49,323 nt of DNA, taken from NCBI RefSeq assembly GCF_000378045.1, contig NZ_KB899100.1, positions 108,799-158,121 on the forward strand. The letters are read 5' to 3'. The stretch is from Marinobacterium rhizophilum DSM 18822. GTDB taxonomy: Bacteria > Pseudomonadota > Gammaproteobacteria > Pseudomonadales > Balneatricaceae. Below are positions 13,491-22,192 of the stretch, piece after piece; position 1 is the first letter of the stretch, and every line of letters begins with the position of its first letter. The notes beneath the pieces were generated by a model. That model was not told the DNA's origin, made no database searches, and saw nothing but the letters and a program-made list of their open reading frames with translations. The position numbers and the translations under genes were made by a program.

Positions 13491-14437
13491 ATGGCGTCTT
13501 CCTTTGGCTTTGACCTGCGCACTCTGGAGGCTTTCGTCCAGATTGCCGAGTCCGGTAACCTGACCCTGGCCGGCCAGCGCCTGGGCATGAGCCAGTCGTC
13601 TTTATCGCAAATCCTTACCAACCTGGAAGCCGAGATGCGCGTCGAACTGATGGATCGCAGCGTCCGGCCCATGGAGATCACCACTGCCGGGCGCTACCTG
13701 TACGACCGGGCCCAGAGTTTGCTGCAGGAAGCCCGTCTTACCAGTCAGAAGATGCGCAAGGCCGACTACAAGTTGCTGCGCCACGTAAAGATCGCCCTGG
13801 TGGATTCCATTATCACCGCCGTGGGCAAACCCCTGATCGACGTACTGCGCCAGCGCACCCAGAGCTGGGCGGCCATCACCGGACAATCCCACCTGCACGC
13901 CCATATGCTGCTGTCACGCCAGGCGGACATCATCATCTCTGATGATACGCTGTCCGATCACTCGGACCTGGACCGCCACCGCATACTCAGGGAACCCTTT
14001 GTACTGGCAGTGCCCAATGATTATACCGGCCCCAAGACACTGGCCGACGTCCTGCAGCGGCTGGATTTTATCCGCTACAGCACCAGTTCACTGATCGGCC
14101 AGGATGTAGAGCTTTTTTGCGCCTCGCCCGCCAGGAGCCGCCGCTGCGCCTGCAGCTGGACAACTCCTTCGCCGTCGTGTCAGCCGTGGCCAGTGCCATC
14201 GGCTGCACCATCACCACACCGCTGTGTTTGTTCCAGAGCGGCATCCGCCAGCACCAGGTGACGCTGCTGCCACTGGGACAGGGCTTTGCCCGCGAGATCA
14301 CCCTCACAACGCGCAAGGGCGAGCTGGGCGACCTGCCCGGCATGATCGCCCGCGACTGCCGACGCATCCTGCAGGACAGTTTCGTGGCCGAGATCGGTGC
14401 CGAATACGCCTGGCTTACCCCCCAGATAGAGGTGTGA
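13491..14437 (+). pseudogene. LysR-family regulator, interrupted by one-base frameshift
   Basis: LysR-type regulator. The N-terminal winged helix-turn-helix (TLEAFVQIAESGNLTLAGQR, then GMSQSSLSQ) and the start of the effector domain read in one frame from ATG 13491, with AAGGA at 13481-13485. At the T6 run 14113-14118 the frame breaks. The rest of the effector domain (RLARQEPPLRLQLDNSF to LTPQIEV) continues in the -1 frame to TGA at 14437. One extra T would restore a 315-residue protein, the usual LysR length. As written, frame 0 yields an altered C-terminus ending at 14261. This may be a true mutation, a sequencing error in the homopolymer, or slippage. It is the nearest regulator to the amino-alcohol cluster, and its 3' tail is the part copied in the array that follows. 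Confidence 0.85.
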
Positions 14438-14716
14438 ATCGAATGTGGGCTCCCACAGAAGTTCGCGAGTGCTGCCAAGGAAATGGCCGCGGGAAAACTC
14501 CGGGTGCCAGGCATGCATTCCGCAGGACAGTTTCGCCGATATTCGCCCACAGAGTGGGCTCCCACAAGAATCGGTCTAGCGGTCGTAGAAAAAGTTGATG
14601 ATCCAGCGCATCACCAGGACATCGTCGACCCTGGCATCATTCCGCAGGACAGTTTCGTGGCCGAGATCGGTGCCGAATACGCCTGGCTTACCCCCCAGAT
14701 AGAGGTGTGAATCGAA

Positions 14717-14786
14717 TGTGGGCGCCCGGTCTCCGGGCGAACAGGGTCGGCACCGCCGATATTCGCCCACAGAGTGGGCTCCCACA
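14717..14786. repeat. REP doublet (REPIN-like), copy 1
   Basis: A 70-bp element opening TGTGGGCGCCCGG and closing GGGCTCCCACA, with conserved inner parts GGCGAACAGG, TCGGCACC and ATTCGCC. The two halves are inverted REP-like sequences of the GTGGGAGC type known from Pseudomonas and relatives. Confidence 0.75.
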
Positions 14787-14926
14787 GAAGTCGGCTCAGC
14801 GGTCGTAGAAAAAGTTGATGATCCAGCGCATCATCGTCTTCGGCATGCATCCCGCAGGACAGTTTCGTGGCCGAGATCGGTGCCGAATATGCCTGGCTTT
14901 CACCCCAGACAGAGGTGTGAATCGAA

Positions 14927-14996
14927 TGTGGGAGCCCGGTCCCCGGACGAACAGGGTCGGCACCGCCGATATTCGCCCACAGAGTGGGCTTCCACA
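14927..14996. repeat. REP doublet (REPIN-like), copy 2
   Basis: A 70-bp element 210 bp after copy 1. It opens TGTGGGAGCCCGG and closes GGGCTTCCACA, with the same core (CGAACAGG, TCGGCACC, ATTCGCC). Confidence 0.75.
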
Positions 14997-15136
14997 GAAG
15001 TCGGCTCAGCGGTCGTAGAAGAAATTGATGATCCAGCGCATCATCGACCTCGGCATGCATTCCGCAGGACAGTTTCGTGGCCGAAATCGGTGCCGAATAT
15101 GCCTGGCTTTCACCCCAGACAGAGGTGTGAATCGAA

Positions 15137-15206
15137 TGTGGGAGCCCGGTCCCCGGGCGAACAGGGTCGGCACCGGCAATATTTGCCCACAGAGTGGGCT
15201 CCCACA
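15137..15206. repeat. REP doublet (REPIN-like), copy 3
   Basis: A 70-bp element 210 bp after copy 2 and next to the native amidotransferase 3' end. It opens TGTGGGAGCCCGG and closes GGGCTCCCACA, with the core slightly changed (ATTTGCC for ATTCGCC). Confidence 0.75.
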
Positions 15207-15215
15207 GAAGTCGGC

Positions 15216-15920
15216 TCAGCGGTCGTAGAAGAAATTGATGATCCAGCGCATCACCAGGACATCATCAACCTCGGCGTTGAGTGAATGCAGCGCCTCGCGC
15301 ACCCGGCTGGGTGCTATGCGGTTCTGGCGGCTGAGGGTCAGTTCGCGAGAATAATCGCGGGAAAACTCCGGGTGTCCCTGCACGCTGATCAGGTGATTCT
15401 GGTACTGCAGCATGTAATACGGGCAGAAGGCGCTGCTGGCCAGCACTTCAAAGCCCTCCGGCAACCGGCTGACCTGATCCTGATGGCTGACCACCAGGTC
15501 GATAGCGGGCTTGAACGGTTCCATCCAGGGCTTGCGCACATCGACCTGATTGAAGGATACCCCCACGCCCCAGCCACGATCCGATTGTTCAACCTCGCCA
15601 CCGAGCGCCCGGGCCAGTAGCTGATGGCCAAAACAGATACCGGCGAACTTTTTCTTGGCCGCATCCAGGCGACGAATAAAATCCTCCAGCTCCCCCACCC
15701 AGGCCAAGCCATCGAGCACGCCGTGGCGACTGCCGGAGGTGATATAGGCATCACACTCATCGATATCGGCCGGCAGCTCACCGAGCCTGGCATCGTAGAC
15801 CGCAAACTCAAGCTCCGGGTCGACCTTTAGCATCAGGTCCCGGAACATCTGCGGATAATTGCCAAACCTCTGCTGCAGCTTATCCTGCACATCGTCGCAC
15901 TGCAGAATGCCAATTTTCAT
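15216..15920 (-). CDS. Class I glutamine amidotransferase-like gamma-glutamyl hydrolase
   Basis: Cytoplasmic protein of 234 aa with a class I glutamine amidotransferase fold. The triad is intact: Cys96 in GICFGHQLL, His183 and Glu185 in QGHPEF. No synthase partner domain is attached, as in stand-alone gamma-glutamyl hydrolases such as PuuD or IpuF. Its place beside a gamma-glutamyl ligase and two dehydrogenases suggests that it releases glutamate from the oxidised gamma-glutamyl intermediate, for example gamma-glutamylglycine. ATG at 15920 has AGAGG about 9-13 nt upstream. It is the last gene of the cluster, 142 bp after the alcohol dehydrogenase. Its last codons (WIINFFYDR) are copied three times in the adjacent array. 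Confidence 0.8.
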   Translation of the reverse strand: MKIGILQCDDVQDKLQQRFGNYPQMFRDLMLKVDPELEFAVYDARLGELPADIDECDAYITSGSRHGVLDGLAWVGELEDFIRRLDAAKKKFAGICFGHQLLARALGGEVEQSDRGWGVGVSFNQVDVRKPWMEPFKPAIDLVVSHQDQVSRLPEGFEVLASSAFCPYYMLQYQNHLISVQGHPEFSRDYSRELTLSRQNRIAPSRVREALHSLNAEVDDVLVMRWIINFFYDR

Positions 15921-15947
15921 TGCGTTTTCCTCTTTACCAGGCCATCC

Positions 15948-15963
15948 GGCAGGCTTCCCTGCC
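15948..15963 (-). other. Small intercistronic hairpin
   Basis: GGCAGG / CCTGCC with loop CTTC, in the 142-bp gap between the iron alcohol dehydrogenase and amidotransferase genes. It may affect mRNA processing; no T-run is next to it. Confidence 0.35.
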
Positions 15964-16062
15964 CGCCTGTGAAGCGCCCTTGAAACGGGGCATATTTTTT
16001 AAAACACCTTGGTTTTCAAGAGCTCGTATTGACCCATGGCCAATGGTGACGTCTTCCTGCAA

Positions 16063-17232
16063 TCAGAGTTCGCCGCGAATAGCCCGTCCGCACAGCTCGC
16101 TGTACTGGACCGCACTGAACTGGATCGGGTTGCCGCCGGCAGACGGGTCCTCGGTGGCCATACGGCCGATTTTCTCCAGCTGGCCCGCGTCGATACCAAT
16201 CTCGCCCAGGCTGTGGGGAATGCCGACCTGGGCGCGCAATTCCAGCACCCAGTTGAGGAAGCCATCGAAACTCGTATCGGCCAGACCAATGTAGCGCGCA
16301 GTGCGCTCGATACGCTCGCTGATGACTTCACGGTTGGCCTTGAGTACATAGGGCATCAGGATGGCGTTGAGCAGGCCATGGTGGGCATCGAACAGGGCGC
16401 CCAGCGGATGGGCCAGCGCATGCATGGCGCCGAGCCCCTTCTGGAAGGCTGTCGCCCCCATGGAGGACGCCACGATCATCTGCATGCGCGCTTCCAGGTC
16501 CTGGCCATAGGCCACCGCACGGGGCAGAAAATCACACACCAGGCGGATTCCTTCGATGGCAATGCCCTCGGCCATGGGATGCCAAAATGGCGAGCAGAGC
16601 GCCTCCAGGTTATGCGACAGCGCATCCATGCCGGTGGCGGCGGTGACCTTGGGCGGCAGGCCGACGGTCAGCGCCGGATCCAGAATCACGATGGACGGCA
16701 GCATTTTGGGATGGAAGATGATCTTCTTGATGTGCTGTTCGTCGTCGGTAATCACCGAGGCCCGGCCAACTTCAGAGCCGGTGCCGGCGGTTGTGGGCAC
16801 CGCGACAATGGGGGCCACCGCATCGGCGTTGACGCGGGTCCAGTTGTCGCCGACATCCTCGAAATCCCACAGTTCAAGTGTCTGGCCGGCCATTAGTGCG
16901 ACCGCCTTGGCGGCATCCAGTGCGGAGCCGCCACCAAAGGCGATGACGCCATCGTGCTGACCCGAGCGGTAGGCCGCCAGGCCATCATCGACATTCTTGC
17001 CGGTGGGGTTGCCCTTGATATTGCTGAACAGCCCGATGCGCAGCCCAGCCGCGCGGCACTGCGCCTCGGCCTCAGCCACCATGGGCAGCGCTGCAAGACC
17101 CGGGTCGGTGATCAGCAGGGGCGCCTGCATGCCGAGCGCCCTGCAGCACTCGGCCAGTTCGCTGATGCGCCCGGCGCCGGCTCGAATGCTGTTGGGGTAG
17201 TTCCAGTTACCACTCAGGTTTTCGTAGTTCAT
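16063..17232 (-). CDS. Iron-containing alcohol dehydrogenase
   Basis: Group III (FucO/EutG-like) dehydrogenase of 389 aa. The NAD-binding GGGSALDAAKAVAL lies in the N-terminal half and PTTAGTGSEVGR follows. The Fe(II) ligands fit the family pattern: Asp203 and His207 in GMDALSHNLEAL, His271 in AMHALAH and His285 in AHHG, the last two 14 residues apart as in FucO. In this operon it is the likely oxidant of a gamma-glutamylated amino alcohol to the aldehyde, replacing the flavin oxidase PuuB of putrescine catabolism. The ATG at 17232 is preferred over an upstream in-frame start at 17274. It starts 59 bp after the aldehyde dehydrogenase stop. Confidence 0.9.
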   Translation of the reverse strand: MNYENLSGNWNYPNSIRAGAGRISELAECCRALGMQAPLLITDPGLAALPMVAEAEAQCRAAGLRIGLFSNIKGNPTGKNVDDGLAAYRSGQHDGVIAFGGGSALDAAKAVALMAGQTLELWDFEDVGDNWTRVNADAVAPIVAVPTTAGTGSEVGRASVITDDEQHIKKIIFHPKMLPSIVILDPALTVGLPPKVTAATGMDALSHNLEALCSPFWHPMAEGIAIEGIRLVCDFLPRAVAYGQDLEARMQMIVASSMGATAFQKGLGAMHALAHPLGALFDAHHGLLNAILMPYVLKANREVISERIERTARYIGLADTSFDGFLNWVLELRAQVGIPHSLGEIGIDAGQLEKIGRMATEDPSAGGNPIQFSAVQYSELCGRAIRGEL

Positions 17233-17291
17233 CGTCGTTGTCTCGGCTTGAGGTGACAGGCCAGGGCCTGTCACCGGAATCAGTGGGGCGC

Positions 17292-18683
17292 TCAGATCTC
17301 GGTCTTGAGATGGAACGACTTGGGCCTTGTCAGGTGTTCGAAACCAACCACCGACAGGGTGCAGCCGCGGCCGGAATGCTTGACCCCGGTCCAGGCCAGG
17401 GCCGGGTCCAGGTAGTCGCAGCGGTTGATAAAGAAGGTGCCGGTGTCGAGCTGCTCGCCAATCGCCACGCCCGCATCCATGTCGCGGGTGAAGACCGACG
17501 CCGTCAGGCCGAACTCGGAGTCGTTCATCAGCGCGATAGCCTCCTCGTCGGAGCTGACCTTCTGGATGCCGACCACCGGGCCGAAGGTCTCTTCGGTCAT
17601 CACCCGCATGCCGTGGTTTACATTCGTCAGTACCTGGGGCGCCAGATAGGCGCTGCCGGGGGCGTCCAGCGGGAAGTCGGCCGGATCGATATGGGCCACG
17701 GCACCGGCCGCGACCGCATCGCTCACTTGGGCGCGAATGAAGTCGGCGGCACTGGCGCGTACCACGGGCCCGAGGGTGGTTTCGGGATCGTCTGAGCGGC
17801 CCAGCTGGTATTGTTTTACCAGCGCCACGGCCTGTTCGACGAAGCGCTCGTACACTGACTCATGCACATAGATGCGCTCGATGCCGCAGCAGGACTGCCC
17901 GGAGTTGAAGAAGGCGCCATCGATGGTGGTTTCGACGGCATGATCGAGATCGGCATCCTCGCGGATATAGGCCGGGTCCTTGCCGCCGAGCTCCAGCCCG
18001 ACACCGATGAAACGCCCGGCCGCGGCCCGCTCGACCATGGCGCCGCCGGGCACGGAACCGGTGAAGCAGACATGGTTGACGCGCGCATCCCGAATGACCC
18101 CTTCGGTGTCGGCATGGGCCAGGTGCAGGTACTGGAACACGCCCTCGGGCAGGCCGGCGGCCTGGAAGGCTTCGGCAAAGCGCTCGGCGCACAGCGGCGT
18201 CTGGGCCGAGTGTTTCAGCACCACGGTATTGCCGGCCAGTATCGCCGGCACGATGGCGTTCACCGCGGTCATGTAGGGGAAATTCCAGGGCGCGATCACG
18301 AACACCACGCCCACGGCCTCACGGGTGATGTAGCGGGTGAAACCGGTCTTTTCCGGCAGCTGGATCGGCTGCAGCGCCTCGGCGGCCACCGAGATCATGT
18401 AGCGTGCGCGCTCCTCGACGCCACCGACCTCGCCGGCGGCATAGCGGATCGGGCGGCCCATCTGCCAGCACAGTTCGGCGGCGATTTCGTCCTTGCAGGC
18501 CACGAAGGCGTCGACCATGCGGCTGCAGATCGCGCTGCGCTCCTCCAGCGGAGTGCTTTTCCAGGCCTTGTGCGCACGGGTGGCGCGGGCCAGGGTCGTT
18601 TCAATCTCGGCCCCGGTGGCGTAGTCACGTACCACGTATTCGGAACCGTCGATCGGGGACAGGGTTTTCAGCTGTTGACTCAT
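17292..18683 (-). CDS. NAD(P)-dependent aldehyde dehydrogenase
   Basis: Aldehyde dehydrogenase of 463 aa, slightly shorter than the common 480-500. Asn134 (PWNFP), the general base Glu231 (LELGGKDP) and the nucleophile Cys265 (GQSCCG) are present. C-terminal EETFGPVV and SEFGLTASVF are typical. In this context it should oxidise the gamma-glutamyl aminoaldehyde to the acid, the role of PuuC in the putrescine pathway. The ATG at 18683 has only a weak ribosome binding site. It lies 80 bp after the glutamine-synthetase-like gene and 59 bp before the alcohol dehydrogenase. The substrate is inferred from neighbours, not from the protein itself. Confidence 0.9.
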   Translation of the reverse strand: MSQQLKTLSPIDGSEYVVRDYATGAEIETTLARATRAHKAWKSTPLEERSAICSRMVDAFVACKDEIAAELCWQMGRPIRYAAGEVGGVEERARYMISVAAEALQPIQLPEKTGFTRYITREAVGVVFVIAPWNFPYMTAVNAIVPAILAGNTVVLKHSAQTPLCAERFAEAFQAAGLPEGVFQYLHLAHADTEGVIRDARVNHVCFTGSVPGGAMVERAAAGRFIGVGLELGGKDPAYIREDADLDHAVETTIDGAFFNSGQSCCGIERIYVHESVYERFVEQAVALVKQYQLGRSDDPETTLGPVVRASAADFIRAQVSDAVAAGAVAHIDPADFPLDAPGSAYLAPQVLTNVNHGMRVMTEETFGPVVGIQKVSSDEEAIALMNDSEFGLTASVFTRDMDAGVAIGEQLDTGTFFINRCDYLDPALAWTGVKHSGRGCTLSVVGFEHLTRPKSFHLKTEI

Positions 18684-18763
18684 CTTGGTACTCGTCTCAC
18701 TTCAGGCACCCACAATGCGGGGCGGATCATCGAATAAGGGTCTGGCCTCACGGCAGTCCAGCG

Positions 18764-20143
18764 CTAGATAATTTCGAAGTAGCGCTGCAGTTCCCAGTCA
18801 CTGACATGCTTGCGGTATTGCTGGTTTTCCCAGATGCGGGTCGCCGCGTAATGCTCGACAAAGGCTTCGCCGAACAGCTCCTTTGCCACCTCGGAGTCGC
18901 GCAGTGCCACGGCGGCATCATGCAGCGACAGCGGCAGCGCCAGGCTTTGCGGGTGCTCCTGGTTATAGGCATTGCCCACCACAGCAGCTTCAGGCTCGAC
19001 CTCGTTTTCGATGCCCCAGAGCCCTGCTCCCAGCGCCGCCGCCAGGGCGATGTAGGGGTTGGCATCGGCGGAACCGAGGCGGAATTCCACTCGCTGGGAC
19101 TTCTCGGAACCCGGTATCACCCGCAGTGCCGTGGTGCGGTTTTCCACCGCCCAGGTCGCATCGGTCGGCGCCCAGAAACCGGGGATCAGGCGGGAGTAGG
19201 CATTCACCGTCTGCGCCAGCATGGCCAGCAGTTGCGGCATCAGCCTCTGCTGCCCGCCGATAAAGTGGCGCTGCTGCCGGCTGATGTTGTGCGCCTGACT
19301 CGGATCATGAAACACCGAGCCTGATCCGTCCTTGTGCCGCAGCGACATGTGGATATGCCCCGACTGCCCCGGGTAGTCGTTGGACCACTTGGCCATGAAG
19401 GTGGCCATCATGTTGTTGCGCTGCGCCCAGACCTTGGTGAAGGTCTTGAACAGTGCCGCCTTGTCCGCCGCATCGCTGGCGTTATCCACGATCAGTGCCG
19501 CTTCCAGCACGCCGGGGCCGGTTTCGGTATGCAGGCCCTCGATCGGGAAATCCATCTGCCGCGCGAACTCCAGCAGGTCGTGGTACAGCTCGGCATGCAC
19601 GGAGTTGCGCAGCATCGAATAGCCATGAAAGCCCGGTGTAATGGGTTTCAGGTCGCGATAGCCTTTTTCGCGGATCGAGTCCGGCGTCTCGTTGAACAGG
19701 AAGAATTCGTACTCAAAGGCCGCATAAGGCTCAAAGCCCAGCTTGTCGGCCCGCTTGAGCACCCGTTGCAGCAGGTTGCGCGGGCAGATGCTGTCGGTCG
19801 GCGTATCGAACTCACAGAGGAACAGCAGCATGTCCTTTTCAAATGGCAGCTCGCGGCAGCTCTGGGGCAGCACGCGAACCGGCGCATCCGGGTAGGCAGT
19901 GTGCCAGCCGGTATAGGTGACGCCGACGTTTTCGTACAGCTGGTCATTGGAGTCCCAGCCCAGCACCACGTCGCAGAAGGCAAAGCCGCTGTCCAGCGCA
20001 CTGAAGAACTTGTCCTTGCACATGTACTTGCCGCGCATGATGCCGTCGACATCATAGAGACCTACCTTGACGTCGCGCAGGCCACGCTCTTCCACGATTC
20101 GCTTGGCGTCGGCAACCGTTTTTACATCTCTGGGATTCATCAT
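18764..20143 (-). CDS. Glutamine-synthetase-like gamma-glutamyl-amine ligase
   Basis: GlnA-family enzyme of 459 aa, close in size to PuuA/GlnT-type gamma-glutamyl ligases and shorter than GlnA. Catalytic regions are intact: EYEFF with metal-binding glutamates (about 144 and 146), HTETGPGVLE (205-214), GHIHMSL (from 262), ATP-binding NRTTALRV, and EFRLGSADANPYIALAAALGAG. The typical GlnA adenylylation-tyrosine loop is not evident. The family joins glutamate to an amine using ATP. Beside an ethanolamine-type permease and an alcohol dehydrogenase, gamma-glutamylethanolamide is the likeliest product, the reaction shown for Streptomyces GlnA4. Two adjacent ATGs start the ORF; the first has GAGGA about 9-13 nt upstream. 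Confidence 0.88.
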   Translation of the reverse strand: MMNPRDVKTVADAKRIVEERGLRDVKVGLYDVDGIMRGKYMCKDKFFSALDSGFAFCDVVLGWDSNDQLYENVGVTYTGWHTAYPDAPVRVLPQSCRELPFEKDMLLFLCEFDTPTDSICPRNLLQRVLKRADKLGFEPYAAFEYEFFLFNETPDSIREKGYRDLKPITPGFHGYSMLRNSVHAELYHDLLEFARQMDFPIEGLHTETGPGVLEAALIVDNASDAADKAALFKTFTKVWAQRNNMMATFMAKWSNDYPGQSGHIHMSLRHKDGSGSVFHDPSQAHNISRQQRHFIGGQQRLMPQLLAMLAQTVNAYSRLIPGFWAPTDATWAVENRTTALRVIPGSEKSQRVEFRLGSADANPYIALAAALGAGLWGIENEVEPEAAVVGNAYNQEHPQSLALPLSLHDAAVALRDSEVAKELFGEAFVEHYAATRIWENQQYRKHVSDWELQRYFEII

Positions 20144-20162
20144 CTCGATTGTCCTCGGGGAA

Positions 20163-20220
20163 GGCCGACCGCATCGGCCCCCGGTTTTTATTGTCGTGCC
20201 CGCGGGCCCTTGCGGCCCGC
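20163..20220 (-). other. Pair of intercistronic hairpins between permease and ligase genes
   Basis: Two stems lie in the 90-bp gap: GCGGGCC/GGCCCGC (20202-20220, loop 5 nt) and GGCCGA/TCGGCC (20163-20179, loop 5 nt). In the direction of transcription an A-rich rather than T-rich stretch separates them, so they more likely act in mRNA stability or differential expression than as terminators. Confidence 0.45.
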
Positions 20221-20233
20221 GCGGCGGTTTCGC

Positions 20234-21667
20234 TCAGCTCAATTCGGATTCGGCCCGTGCGATGGCTTCGAACTCTTCCTCCGGCGCCCGGGCCACCAGA
20301 CGGTGGCGGCTGTAGAAGGCAAAGTAGGCCACCATCACCGCATAGAAGACGCCACTCCAGATGGCCGCTTCCGTGCTCACCAGGAAGGTGGACGCAAAGG
20401 CCGCAATAGAGAGCACGAAGGCGATGCCGGAGGTCACTGCGCCACCCGGCGTTTTGTAGGGGCGCTCCAGATCGGGCTCCTTACGACGCAGAATCATGTG
20501 CGACAGGGTCATCAGGGCATAGGAAATGGTCGCGCCAAACACCGCCATGGTGATCATCAGGTCCCCCTCGCCGGTCAGCGACAGTCCGAAACCGATCAGG
20601 CCCGGTACCACCAGCGCCATGGTCGGCACCTTCTTCTTGCCGGTCACCGACAGCCAGCGCGGCAGATAGCCGGCACGGGACAGTGCAAACACCTGACGTG
20701 AATAAGCATAGATAATGGAAAAGAAGGATGCGATCAGGCCGAAAAGCCCCACCACGTTGACGAAGGTGGCGGCGCTGGAATCTTCGCCGTAAACCGCCTG
20801 CAGTGCGCCCACCAGCGGAGCACCGTGATCCTTCATCAGATCGGCGCCGGCTACACCCGGCGCCAGAAACAGCACCAGGATGCCAAACACCAGCAGCACG
20901 GCCATGGCCGTAATGATGCCGCGGGGCATGTCCCGGGCAGGGTCCTTGCATTCCTCCGCCGCCAGCGGCACGCCTTCCACCGCCAGGAACAGCCACATGG
21001 CAAACGGCAGCGCCGCCCAGATACCCATGTAGCCCTGCGGCAGGAAGCTGCTCGCGCCGGTCGCGGCGGTATTGATGCTGACATCAAACAGGTTATCTAC
21101 GCTGAAATACGGCAGGGTGCCGACGATGAACACCAGAATGGCGGCAACGGCAAGGCCGGTAATGACCATCATGATTTTCAGTGCTTCGCCGGCGCCCCAC
21201 AGATGAATGCCGATAAAGAGCGCATAGAAGGCCGCATACACCAGCGGGCCGTCGAGTCCGAACAGCTCATTCACATAGCCGCCGATAAAGATCGCGATAG
21301 CGGCCGGCGCTATGGCGTATTCCAGCAGGATGGCGGTGCCGGTCAGGTAGCCGCCCCAGGGTCCCAGCGCCCGGCGGGCAAAGCTGTAGCCGCCGCCGGC
21401 GGTGGGCAGTGAGGCCGACAGTTCGGCCAGCGCCAGCACCTTGCAGCTGTACATCAGGGCCATCAGGATGGTGGCGATCAGCATGCCGCCAAAGCCCCCC
21501 TGCCCCAGGCCGAAGTTCCAGCCGGCAAAGTCGCCGGAGATCACGTAGGAAACCCCCAGGCTCGCCAGCAGAATCCAGCCGGCGGCGCCCTGTTTAAGCT
21601 GGCGTTTGTCGAGGTAGTCGCTGGAAACAGACTCATACCCCACCGAGGTGGTTGTCATCTCTGTCAT
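20234..21667 (-). CDS. eat: Ethanolamine permease-like APC transporter
   Basis: Inner-membrane transporter of 477 aa with about 12 hydrophobic segments. The N-terminal region (LKQGAAGWILLASLGVSYVI, then SGDFAGWNFGLGQGG, LAELSASLPTAGGGYSFARR, ILLEYAIAPAAIAIFIGGYV) strongly resembles bacterial ethanolamine permeases of the amino acid-polyamine-organocation superfamily. That identity is recalled, not searched. It would import ethanolamine or a close amine by symport. The ATG at 21667 is chosen for GAGGG about 8 nt upstream; the in-frame start at 21730 would add 21 unsupported residues. First gene of the five-gene cluster. Confidence 0.8.
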   Translation of the reverse strand: MTEMTTTSVGYESVSSDYLDKRQLKQGAAGWILLASLGVSYVISGDFAGWNFGLGQGGFGGMLIATILMALMYSCKVLALAELSASLPTAGGGYSFARRALGPWGGYLTGTAILLEYAIAPAAIAIFIGGYVNELFGLDGPLVYAAFYALFIGIHLWGAGEALKIMMVITGLAVAAILVFIVGTLPYFSVDNLFDVSINTAATGASSFLPQGYMGIWAALPFAMWLFLAVEGVPLAAEECKDPARDMPRGIITAMAVLLVFGILVLFLAPGVAGADLMKDHGAPLVGALQAVYGEDSSAATFVNVVGLFGLIASFFSIIYAYSRQVFALSRAGYLPRWLSVTGKKKVPTMALVVPGLIGFGLSLTGEGDLMITMAVFGATISYALMTLSHMILRRKEPDLERPYKTPGGAVTSGIAFVLSIAAFASTFLVSTEAAIWSGVFYAVMVAYFAFYSRHRLVARAPEEEFEAIARAESELS

Positions 21668-22192
21668 CGAAAAAACCCTCTGCGATCCCGGCAACCGGGT
21701 CGACGTGTTGTTATTGTAGGTGTCGCGCAAAACAGCCCGCAGGCTGTCCCGGCAAGACGGGTACGCCAGTTACTCTAGCCCCGTCGGGTCTGTAGTACCT
21801 AAACAGGTTAAAAGCGGCCAATAGGGTAGTATCGATTTTTTTAATACTTGCTTTTTTCTTTAGCTATCAGTGTATTACATACGACACGAGCTGACCCAGA
21901 GGCGAGAGGCGAGAGGCGAGAGGCGAGAGGCGAGAGGCGAGAGGCGAGAGGCGAGAGGCGAACGATAGACGGCGGCGCAGGCGCGGTACAGGCAGCGCGC
22001 CGGGAAACATCGGTGAAATATGCAGGCTTGCGCAATTGGGCGGACGCGGCACCGCGACGCCGCTGGCCCGAGCCGGATTACAGTCAGCGCAGCGCGACCG
22101 CGCACCGGTGGCGCAGTCTCAGCGCAATGCTTTGCTGCCCATCTGCCTGACGGGACTACAGCCCAGCTGCGCCCTGGCAGGCACAAGTCAGG
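21668..22192. other. 525-bp intergenic region upstream of the permease gene
   Basis: No gene seen. It must hold the promoter of the amino-alcohol cluster, but no clear -35/-10 pair is visible. The stretch 21835-21865 is AT-rich, a heptanucleotide array lies at 21899-21961, and the remainder up to the ferritin-like gene is GC-rich without recognisable structure. Confidence 0.6.
21899..21961. repeat. Nine perfect tandem copies of heptamer GAGGCGA
   Basis: Sixty-three bases made of nine uninterrupted copies of the 7-mer, 232 bp upstream of the permease start. Such short perfect arrays change copy number by slippage. Seven is not a multiple of three, and no gene covers it, so any effect would be on promoter spacing or transcript structure. 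Confidence 0.97.

Follow-up and report, generated by a model that had tools for sequence, protein, structure and literature searches.

A probable gamma-glutamyl ethanolamine route encoded by five genes

Membrane lipids make ethanolamine a widespread source of nitrogen in the sea, and a locus of Marinobacterium rhizophilum DSM 18822 raises the question of whether, and through which intermediates, this bacterium would use it. The window, by which we mean the whole stretch of DNA analysed (49,323 nucleotides of contig NZ_KB899100.1, positions 108,799 to 158,121), contains an operon for a permease, a glutamine synthetase (GS)-like ligase, an aldehyde dehydrogenase (ALDH), an iron-containing alcohol dehydrogenase (ADH) and a class I amidotransferase. 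Judging from protein families and conserved neighbourhoods, from which both substrate and steps are inferred, we consider it likely that the operon serves ethanolamine catabolism by a gamma-glutamyl route, with these five proteins as its enzymes and importer. The permease would import ethanolamine, the ligase would join it with ATP to the gamma-carboxyl of glutamate to give gamma-glutamylethanolamide, the ADH would convert this to the aldehyde, the ALDH would convert the aldehyde to gamma-glutamylglycine, and the cysteine amidotransferase would split the latter into glutamate and glycine.

In the open reading frame (ORF) listing of the window, the five genes are full-length, open, collinear and all on the minus strand (15216-21730), with gaps of 90, 80, 17 and 142 nt in gene order (Table 1), and Pfam and NCBIfam agree in kind with the families that an original prediction, made from the DNA letters, had assigned to the cluster. 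That prediction also held that an alcohol dehydrogenase replaces the flavin oxidase of the Puu putrescine pathway, which was borne out: an Fe-ADH is present, and Pfam found neither a flavin oxidase nor an amide monooxygenase gene among the five ORFs.

The original prediction called such a pathway little described, which did not hold. Publications already describe this reaction series for Phaeobacter (PMC10132767, proteomics), for Streptomyces (PMC6529630, ligase enzymology) and, as cited in published work, for the halophilic gammaproteobacterium Chromohalobacter, and its steps are repeated in a review (PMC9397018). The reaction chemistry is thus already known, and the pair of ligase and hydrolase is a different, widespread version of it. 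In the literature searched, mostly outside subscription journals, we found no description of the window ligase clade as an ethanolamine enzyme, nor any work joining an ethanolamine permease, a glutamine synthetase and an iron-containing alcohol dehydrogenase.

Ethanolamine transporters

The permease scored 543.5 bits against the ethanolamine permease family TIGR00908 (curated cutoff 381.75) and was the sole match to this family at E<=1e-40 in its own genome. EutH had no match in this genome, although the search did pick up E. coli and B. subtilis, which served as controls, and no close EtoX relative was present (best match 26% identical). Among the three ethanolamine transporter families searched in the own genome, the window permease was therefore the only clear match, and by its family it is the predicted dedicated ethanolamine transporter that belongs to an eto-type pathway. 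A second family occurs beside relatives of the ligase: the EtoX-type binding protein of the tripartite ATP-independent periplasmic (TRAP) type at locus L048, whose ligase is of the window type, matched PDB 4uab with 547.8 bits, an entry that we take to be Csal_0678. Csal_0678 binds ethanolamine, as stated in PMC4646407, and PMC10132767 gives a Kd of 7.9 uM for ethanolamine binding by Phaeobacter EtoX.

Conserved neighbourhoods of the ligase

Scanning contigs with the ligase as query gave 365 confirmed relatives; the 80 best of these, at 66-94% identity, served as the loci compared. Neighbours were counted within 7 kb of the ligase under identity limits (at least 60% for the permease); in 29 loci one or both flanks were shorter than 6 kb, and the other 51 formed a well-covered set. 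Across the 80 loci we found the ADH in 75, the ALDH in 62, the amidotransferase in 42, the permease in 20 and an EtoX-type binding protein in 19; permease and TRAP type never occurred together, and no N-formylglutamate amidohydrolase was found within 7 kb of the ligase (0/80). In the well-covered set, ALDH and ADH were both present in 44 loci, the amidotransferase in 29, and all three together in 28; the transporter was of TRAP type in 17 loci, the window permease in 12, and a relative of about 40% identity was the only one in 1. The five-gene grouping exceeds chance, because 44/51 loci have both dehydrogenases and 28/51 have ALDH, ADH and amidotransferase. These neighbourhoods, together with the two ethanolamine transporter families, support the predicted steps and a substrate of the ethanolamine class.

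Two loci (L041, L055) had full flanks, yet the ligase stood alone. Eight others (L015, L017, L019, L021, L025, L026, L036 and L050), some on short contigs, had ligase, ADH and permease with no window-family ALDH within 7 kb.

The ligase and its active site

The window ligase is 94% identical to the ligases of M. profundum and M. sedimentorum. It scored 208.9 bits against GlnA (cutoff 429) and 184.8 bits against gamma-glutamylputrescine synthetase (GGputSyn, cutoff 650); indeed, ligase, ALDH, ADH and amidotransferase all fell below every curated NCBIfam cutoff among the families listed (for the ALDH, the best 25 of 44). An ordinary glutamine synthetase was rejected on the GlnA score, and another gene of the same genome passes that cutoff (653.7 vs 429). 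The GGputSyn cutoff does not discriminate here, because three further GS-like proteins of the own genome, which we call PuuA-like, miss 650 too (241.6, 195.7 and 209.1 bits).

We placed the ligase in a tree of 29 rows, in which its own clade (19 rows) was separate from that of the eto ligases (4 rows), with 100/100 support for each, and IpuC of P. aurescens TC1 and the three PuuA-like proteins fell outside both; the deep joins are unsure because several branches are long. Identity was 28% to the eto ligase of Ruegeria sp. B32, 32% to that of Paracoccus denitrificans and 37% to IpuC. The Ruegeria ligase is 75% identical to the ligase of PDB 5dm3, which is presumably the Chromohalobacter enzyme. 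The window ligase is not a member of the ETAGA/5dm3 clade (28-32% identity, separate clades). Membership of PuuA is argued against by tree position and the absent oxidase, and the ligase is no close relative of the eto, IpuC and PuuA-like enzymes set beside it, which weakens the PuuA half of its original description as PuuA/GlnA4-like.

PMC6529630 names twelve residues for metal, glutamate and nucleotide, and the ligase was compared at these places. Eleven of the 12 are kept in the window ligase, and the place of N264 is Pro. The E327 flap position is occupied by Trp in both the window ligase and IpuC of TC1, and by Phe in the Ruegeria ligase; according to PMC6529630 it is Trp in PauA7 and Phe in GlnA4. 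The D50 place of GS lay within a gapped, unreadable stretch of the alignment.

Dehydrogenases and amidotransferase

Both dehydrogenases are much closer to the eto operons than the ligase is. The ALDH is 58% and 55%, and the ADH 57% and 54%, identical to their eto counterparts of Ruegeria and Paracoccus denitrificans, respectively, and the predicted Fe-ADH and ALDH adjoin the GS-like ligase as in an eto operon. The ALDH has its Cys and Glu motifs and the ADH the motifs DALSH, AHPLG and DAHHG, which we take to be catalytic or metal-binding. The closest solved relative of the amidotransferase is gamma-glutamyl peptidase 1 (2.6e-23). This kinship, the dehydrogenase identities to Ruegeria, and the retained catalytic residues and flap Trp of the ligase count in favour of the predicted ethanolamine route. 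The Cys-His-Glu triad claimed for it is intact (C96 in GICFGHQ, H183 and E185 in GHPEF) and invariant in 12/12 aligned sequences, the window's included, which were chosen from the 42 loci having the gene.

Two ligase lineages and their hydrolases

Seventeen plasmid records contained an EtoX relative, and three EtoX-type plasmid loci were examined. Ruegeria sp. B32 and Paracoccus denitrificans share the order RpiR, N-formylglutamate amidohydrolase, TRAP genes, ligase, ALDH, ADH. The eto-type ligase occurred in 12/116 family genomes and 11/293 order genomes, and for 19 of the 23 the surroundings of the ligase were analysed, as were those of one window-type ligase (L122); some stretches were short (L120, 4 kb). 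The 19 eto-type loci contained an N-formylglutamate amidohydrolase in 14, an EtoX type in 12, an ALDH in 16 and the ADH in 10, and the window-type amidotransferase in none (0/19); a 41% relative of the window permease was present in L113 only. The window operon has no hydrolase of the N-formylglutamate amidohydrolase type, and a GATase occupies its place. Seven eto-type loci (L114, L115, L116, L117, L118, L121 and L123) combined ligase, N-formylglutamate amidohydrolase and ALDH, and the Fe-ADH was not found in them; there, the alcohol step may be carried out by another enzyme or the substrate may differ.

The pairing of ligase type with hydrolase type holds for the sets of close relatives and not for all kin, since the ligase of Rhodobacteraceae bacterium M382, which shares 50% identity and belongs to the wider window clade, adjoins an N-formylglutamate amidohydrolase. 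On plasmids of M382 (L094) and Pseudorhizobium flavum (L100), ligases of about 50% identity lie with an aminotransferase, a polyamine-type ABC transporter and a dimethylformamidase-like gene. Other plasmid relatives (49-59%) lie beside other amidotransferases, aminotransferases, a solute symporter or polyamine-type transporters, and because these neighbours differ, a function should not be transferred to the whole ligase group. Exclusion between the window and eto ligase types was not significant (family, both in 2/116 genomes, p 0.47; order, 0/293, p 0.13).

From these patterns we put forward, as an evenly balanced proposition, that two gamma-glutamyl ethanolamine lineages were assembled separately around a common ADH and ALDH, one with a 5dm3-type ligase and a hydrolase of the N-formylglutamate amidohydrolase type, the other with the window ligase group and a cysteine amidotransferase, that transporters were exchanged more freely, and that in this strain a single ethanolamine permease supplies two routes, the gamma-glutamyl one, ending in glycine, and that of EutBC, ending in acetaldehyde and ammonia. 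Surveys keyed only to EtoX, or to the ligase or hydrolase of the Roseobacter type, would overlook operons like that of the window; the contig scan confirmed 365 relatives of its ligase. The co-variation of ligase and hydrolase among close relatives provides a testable annotation rule and an example of one enzyme family standing in for another inside a single pathway.

Comparison with known systems

In Phaeobacter sp. MED193, according to PMC10132767, growth on phosphorylethanolamine raised the ethanolamine glutamylase, two dehydrogenases, the amidohydrolase and the TRAP binding protein, all encoded in one operon (RpiR-GGAH-EtoVWX-ETAGA-GAADDH-GETADH). Its four proposed reactions are also those predicted for the window operon. 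Compared through the Ruegeria operon, which has the Phaeobacter gene order, the likeness is close for ALDH (58%) and ADH (57%), whereas the ligase is only 28% identical, the Phaeobacter-type hydrolase is annotated as N-formylglutamate amidohydrolase and that of the window is a Cys amidotransferase, and a TRAP transporter and RpiR stand against an APC permease and a LysR.

The Streptomyces system was compared by its description in PMC6529630. GlnA4 forms gamma-glutamylethanolamide in vitro, and its cluster in Streptomyces coelicolor (SCO1610-1615) resembles the window in having a GS-like ligase, an ALDH and a glutamine amidotransferase; in other species a putative ethanolamine permease is included, as in the window, and the Streptomyces permease is reported there as without similarity to Eat. 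SCO1611 is given the alcohol step there and orf2 is called a short-chain dehydrogenase, in contrast to the iron ADH of the window.

The Ipu cluster of TC1 shares with the window a ligase (IpuC, 37%) and nearby amidotransferases, but there the tagged amine is the substrate of a P450 monooxygenase, and removal of the tag precedes oxidation; the Ipu pathway was rejected on the lack of a monooxygenase among the five window ORFs as against one in the TC1 cluster. Puu shares the logic of ligase, ALDH and class I amidotransferase, and differs in that the window ORFs include no PuuB-type flavin oxidase and the ligase lies outside the strain's own PuuA-like clade.

EutBC and competing explanations

Several observations weigh against ethanolamine as the substrate, or against so simple a reading of the neighbourhoods. 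The original prediction had the route avoid ethanolamine ammonia-lyase, but the search for eutBC that it called for found eutB, eutC and an EutR-like regulator away from the operon, so that absence of EutBC from the genome was rejected: EutB occurs once (725 bits), EutC is over its cutoff, and the regulator and an ammonium-transporter-like gene of the same region are both below cutoff. The amine of the window ligase could differ from ethanolamine, because the ligase has only 28-32% identity to the Roseobacter-type eto ligases. If PDB 4xf5 holds 2-amino-1-propanol, as we assume, the TRAP protein may also accept this compound. Moreover, none of the transporters sought was nearby in 21/51 well-covered loci, the window-family ALDH was not found in 18/80 loci (some on short contigs), and in one of the three EtoX-type plasmid loci, that of Tistrella, no ligase was nearby, so EtoX is not always a marker of the pathway. 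Finally, when counted by genus, avoidance of EutB by the ligase was not significant (order, both in 5/119 genera, 6.3 expected, p 0.35; family, both in 3/16 genera, p 0.16). By genome, co-occurrence was below expectation, which counts in favour of the ethanolamine reading: among 293 genomes of the order, 48 had the window ligase type, 77 EutB and 3 both (12.6 expected, Fisher p 0.00016), and among 116 of the family 2 had both (7.2 expected, p 0.0066). Strict exclusion is therefore a weak candidate. For the eto-type ligase and EutB, the family had 0 genomes with both out of 116 (p 0.016) and the order 2 out of 293 (p 0.41).

The same enzyme logic might serve mainly another primary amino alcohol such as L-alaninol (2-amino-1-propanol) or 3-amino-1-propanol, with alanine or beta-alanine as the product and ethanolamine left to EutBC. 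EutBC in the own genome and the possible uptake of 2-amino-1-propanol by the TRAP protein are in keeping with this, as is IpuC of the isopropylamine/alaninol pathway, the sole amine-specific ligase name among the 20 best plasmid matches listed. We nevertheless regard it as rather unlikely: the permease exceeds the ethanolamine cutoff, the own genome yielded no further known ethanolamine transporter that could serve EutBC, the five ORFs include no monooxygenase, unlike the TC1 cluster with its P450 and ferredoxin, and of the 6 remaining Marinobacterium genomes 5 have the ligase and none EutB (in the genus as a whole, the ligase is in 6/7 genomes, EutB in the own genome only, and one genome has neither). 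A Puu-type route for a polyamine or other diamine, suggested by the resemblance in kind of ligase, ALDH and amidotransferase to PuuA, PuuC and PuuD, is very improbable, as an alcohol dehydrogenase does not fit a diamine, the permease belongs to an ethanolamine family, and the ligase is outside the clade of the three PuuA-like proteins, each of which has a gene like a flavin adenine dinucleotide (FAD) oxidase nearby (two of the three scanned in a follow-up). We give hardly any credence to an ordinary glutamine synthetase that happens to lie in line with unrelated genes; each of the five families is common, but ALDH and ADH accompany the ligase in most well-covered loci (44/51), gene order is conserved across distant genera, and the GlnA cutoff is passed by another gene and not by this ligase.

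Overall, the original interpretation is partly supported. The gamma-glutamyl route for ethanolamine probably coexists with EutBC in this strain, and the two may share the window permease, given that no ethanolamine-type permease was among the ten ORFs scanned at the eutBC region. In that region (L088, C6:28000-47500 of the own genome), a type III glutamate-ammonia ligase (658 bits, over cutoff) is encoded some 6 kb away from eutBC; genes resembling those for glutamate synthase and sarcosine oxidase accompany it, a set that presumably resembles the N-methylglutamate pathway.

Gene boundaries and flanking features

Table 1. Genes of the predicted ethanolamine operon and its neighbour (window coordinates)
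Feature	Coordinates	Strand	Domain match or remark
Ethanolamine permease, APC family, Eat type	20234..21730	-	TIGR00908, AA_permease_2
Predicted gamma-glutamylethanolamide synthetase, GS-like gamma-glutamyl amine ligase	18764..20143	-	PF00120 Gln-synt_C
Aldehyde dehydrogenase, predicted gamma-glutamyl-aminoacetaldehyde to gamma-glutamylglycine	17292..18683	-	PF00171 Aldedh
Iron-containing alcohol dehydrogenase, predicted gamma-glutamylethanolamide dehydrogenase	16063..17274	-	PF00465 Fe-ADH, PF25137 ADH_Fe_C
Class I (Cys-His-Glu) amidotransferase, predicted gamma-glutamylglycine hydrolase	15216..15920	-	PF00117 GATase
LysR-type regulator, candidate	13491..14437	+	Convergent with operon end; frame broken near 14114-14117

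The permease ORF opens with a TTG at 21730, and its residue 22 is an in-frame ATG at 21667, the boundary given by the original prediction and the likely start. The LysR gene next to the operon end is a candidate regulator, and a LysR lay within 7 kb of the ligase in 19/80 loci. Its two frames are 95% and 94% identical to the LysR at the equivalent place of locus L008, which is intact; the break in the window is either a pseudogene or a sequencing error. No RNA families or tRNAs were found in the window, and promoter and terminator scans gave results close to chance. Between the LysR gene and the operon, a 210-bp unit is present in three tandem copies (14638-15267; 100, 94 and 88%). The unit includes a duplicate of the LysR 3' end together with a palindrome-like TGTGGGAGCCC element, and the last copy extends into the 3' end of the amidotransferase gene.

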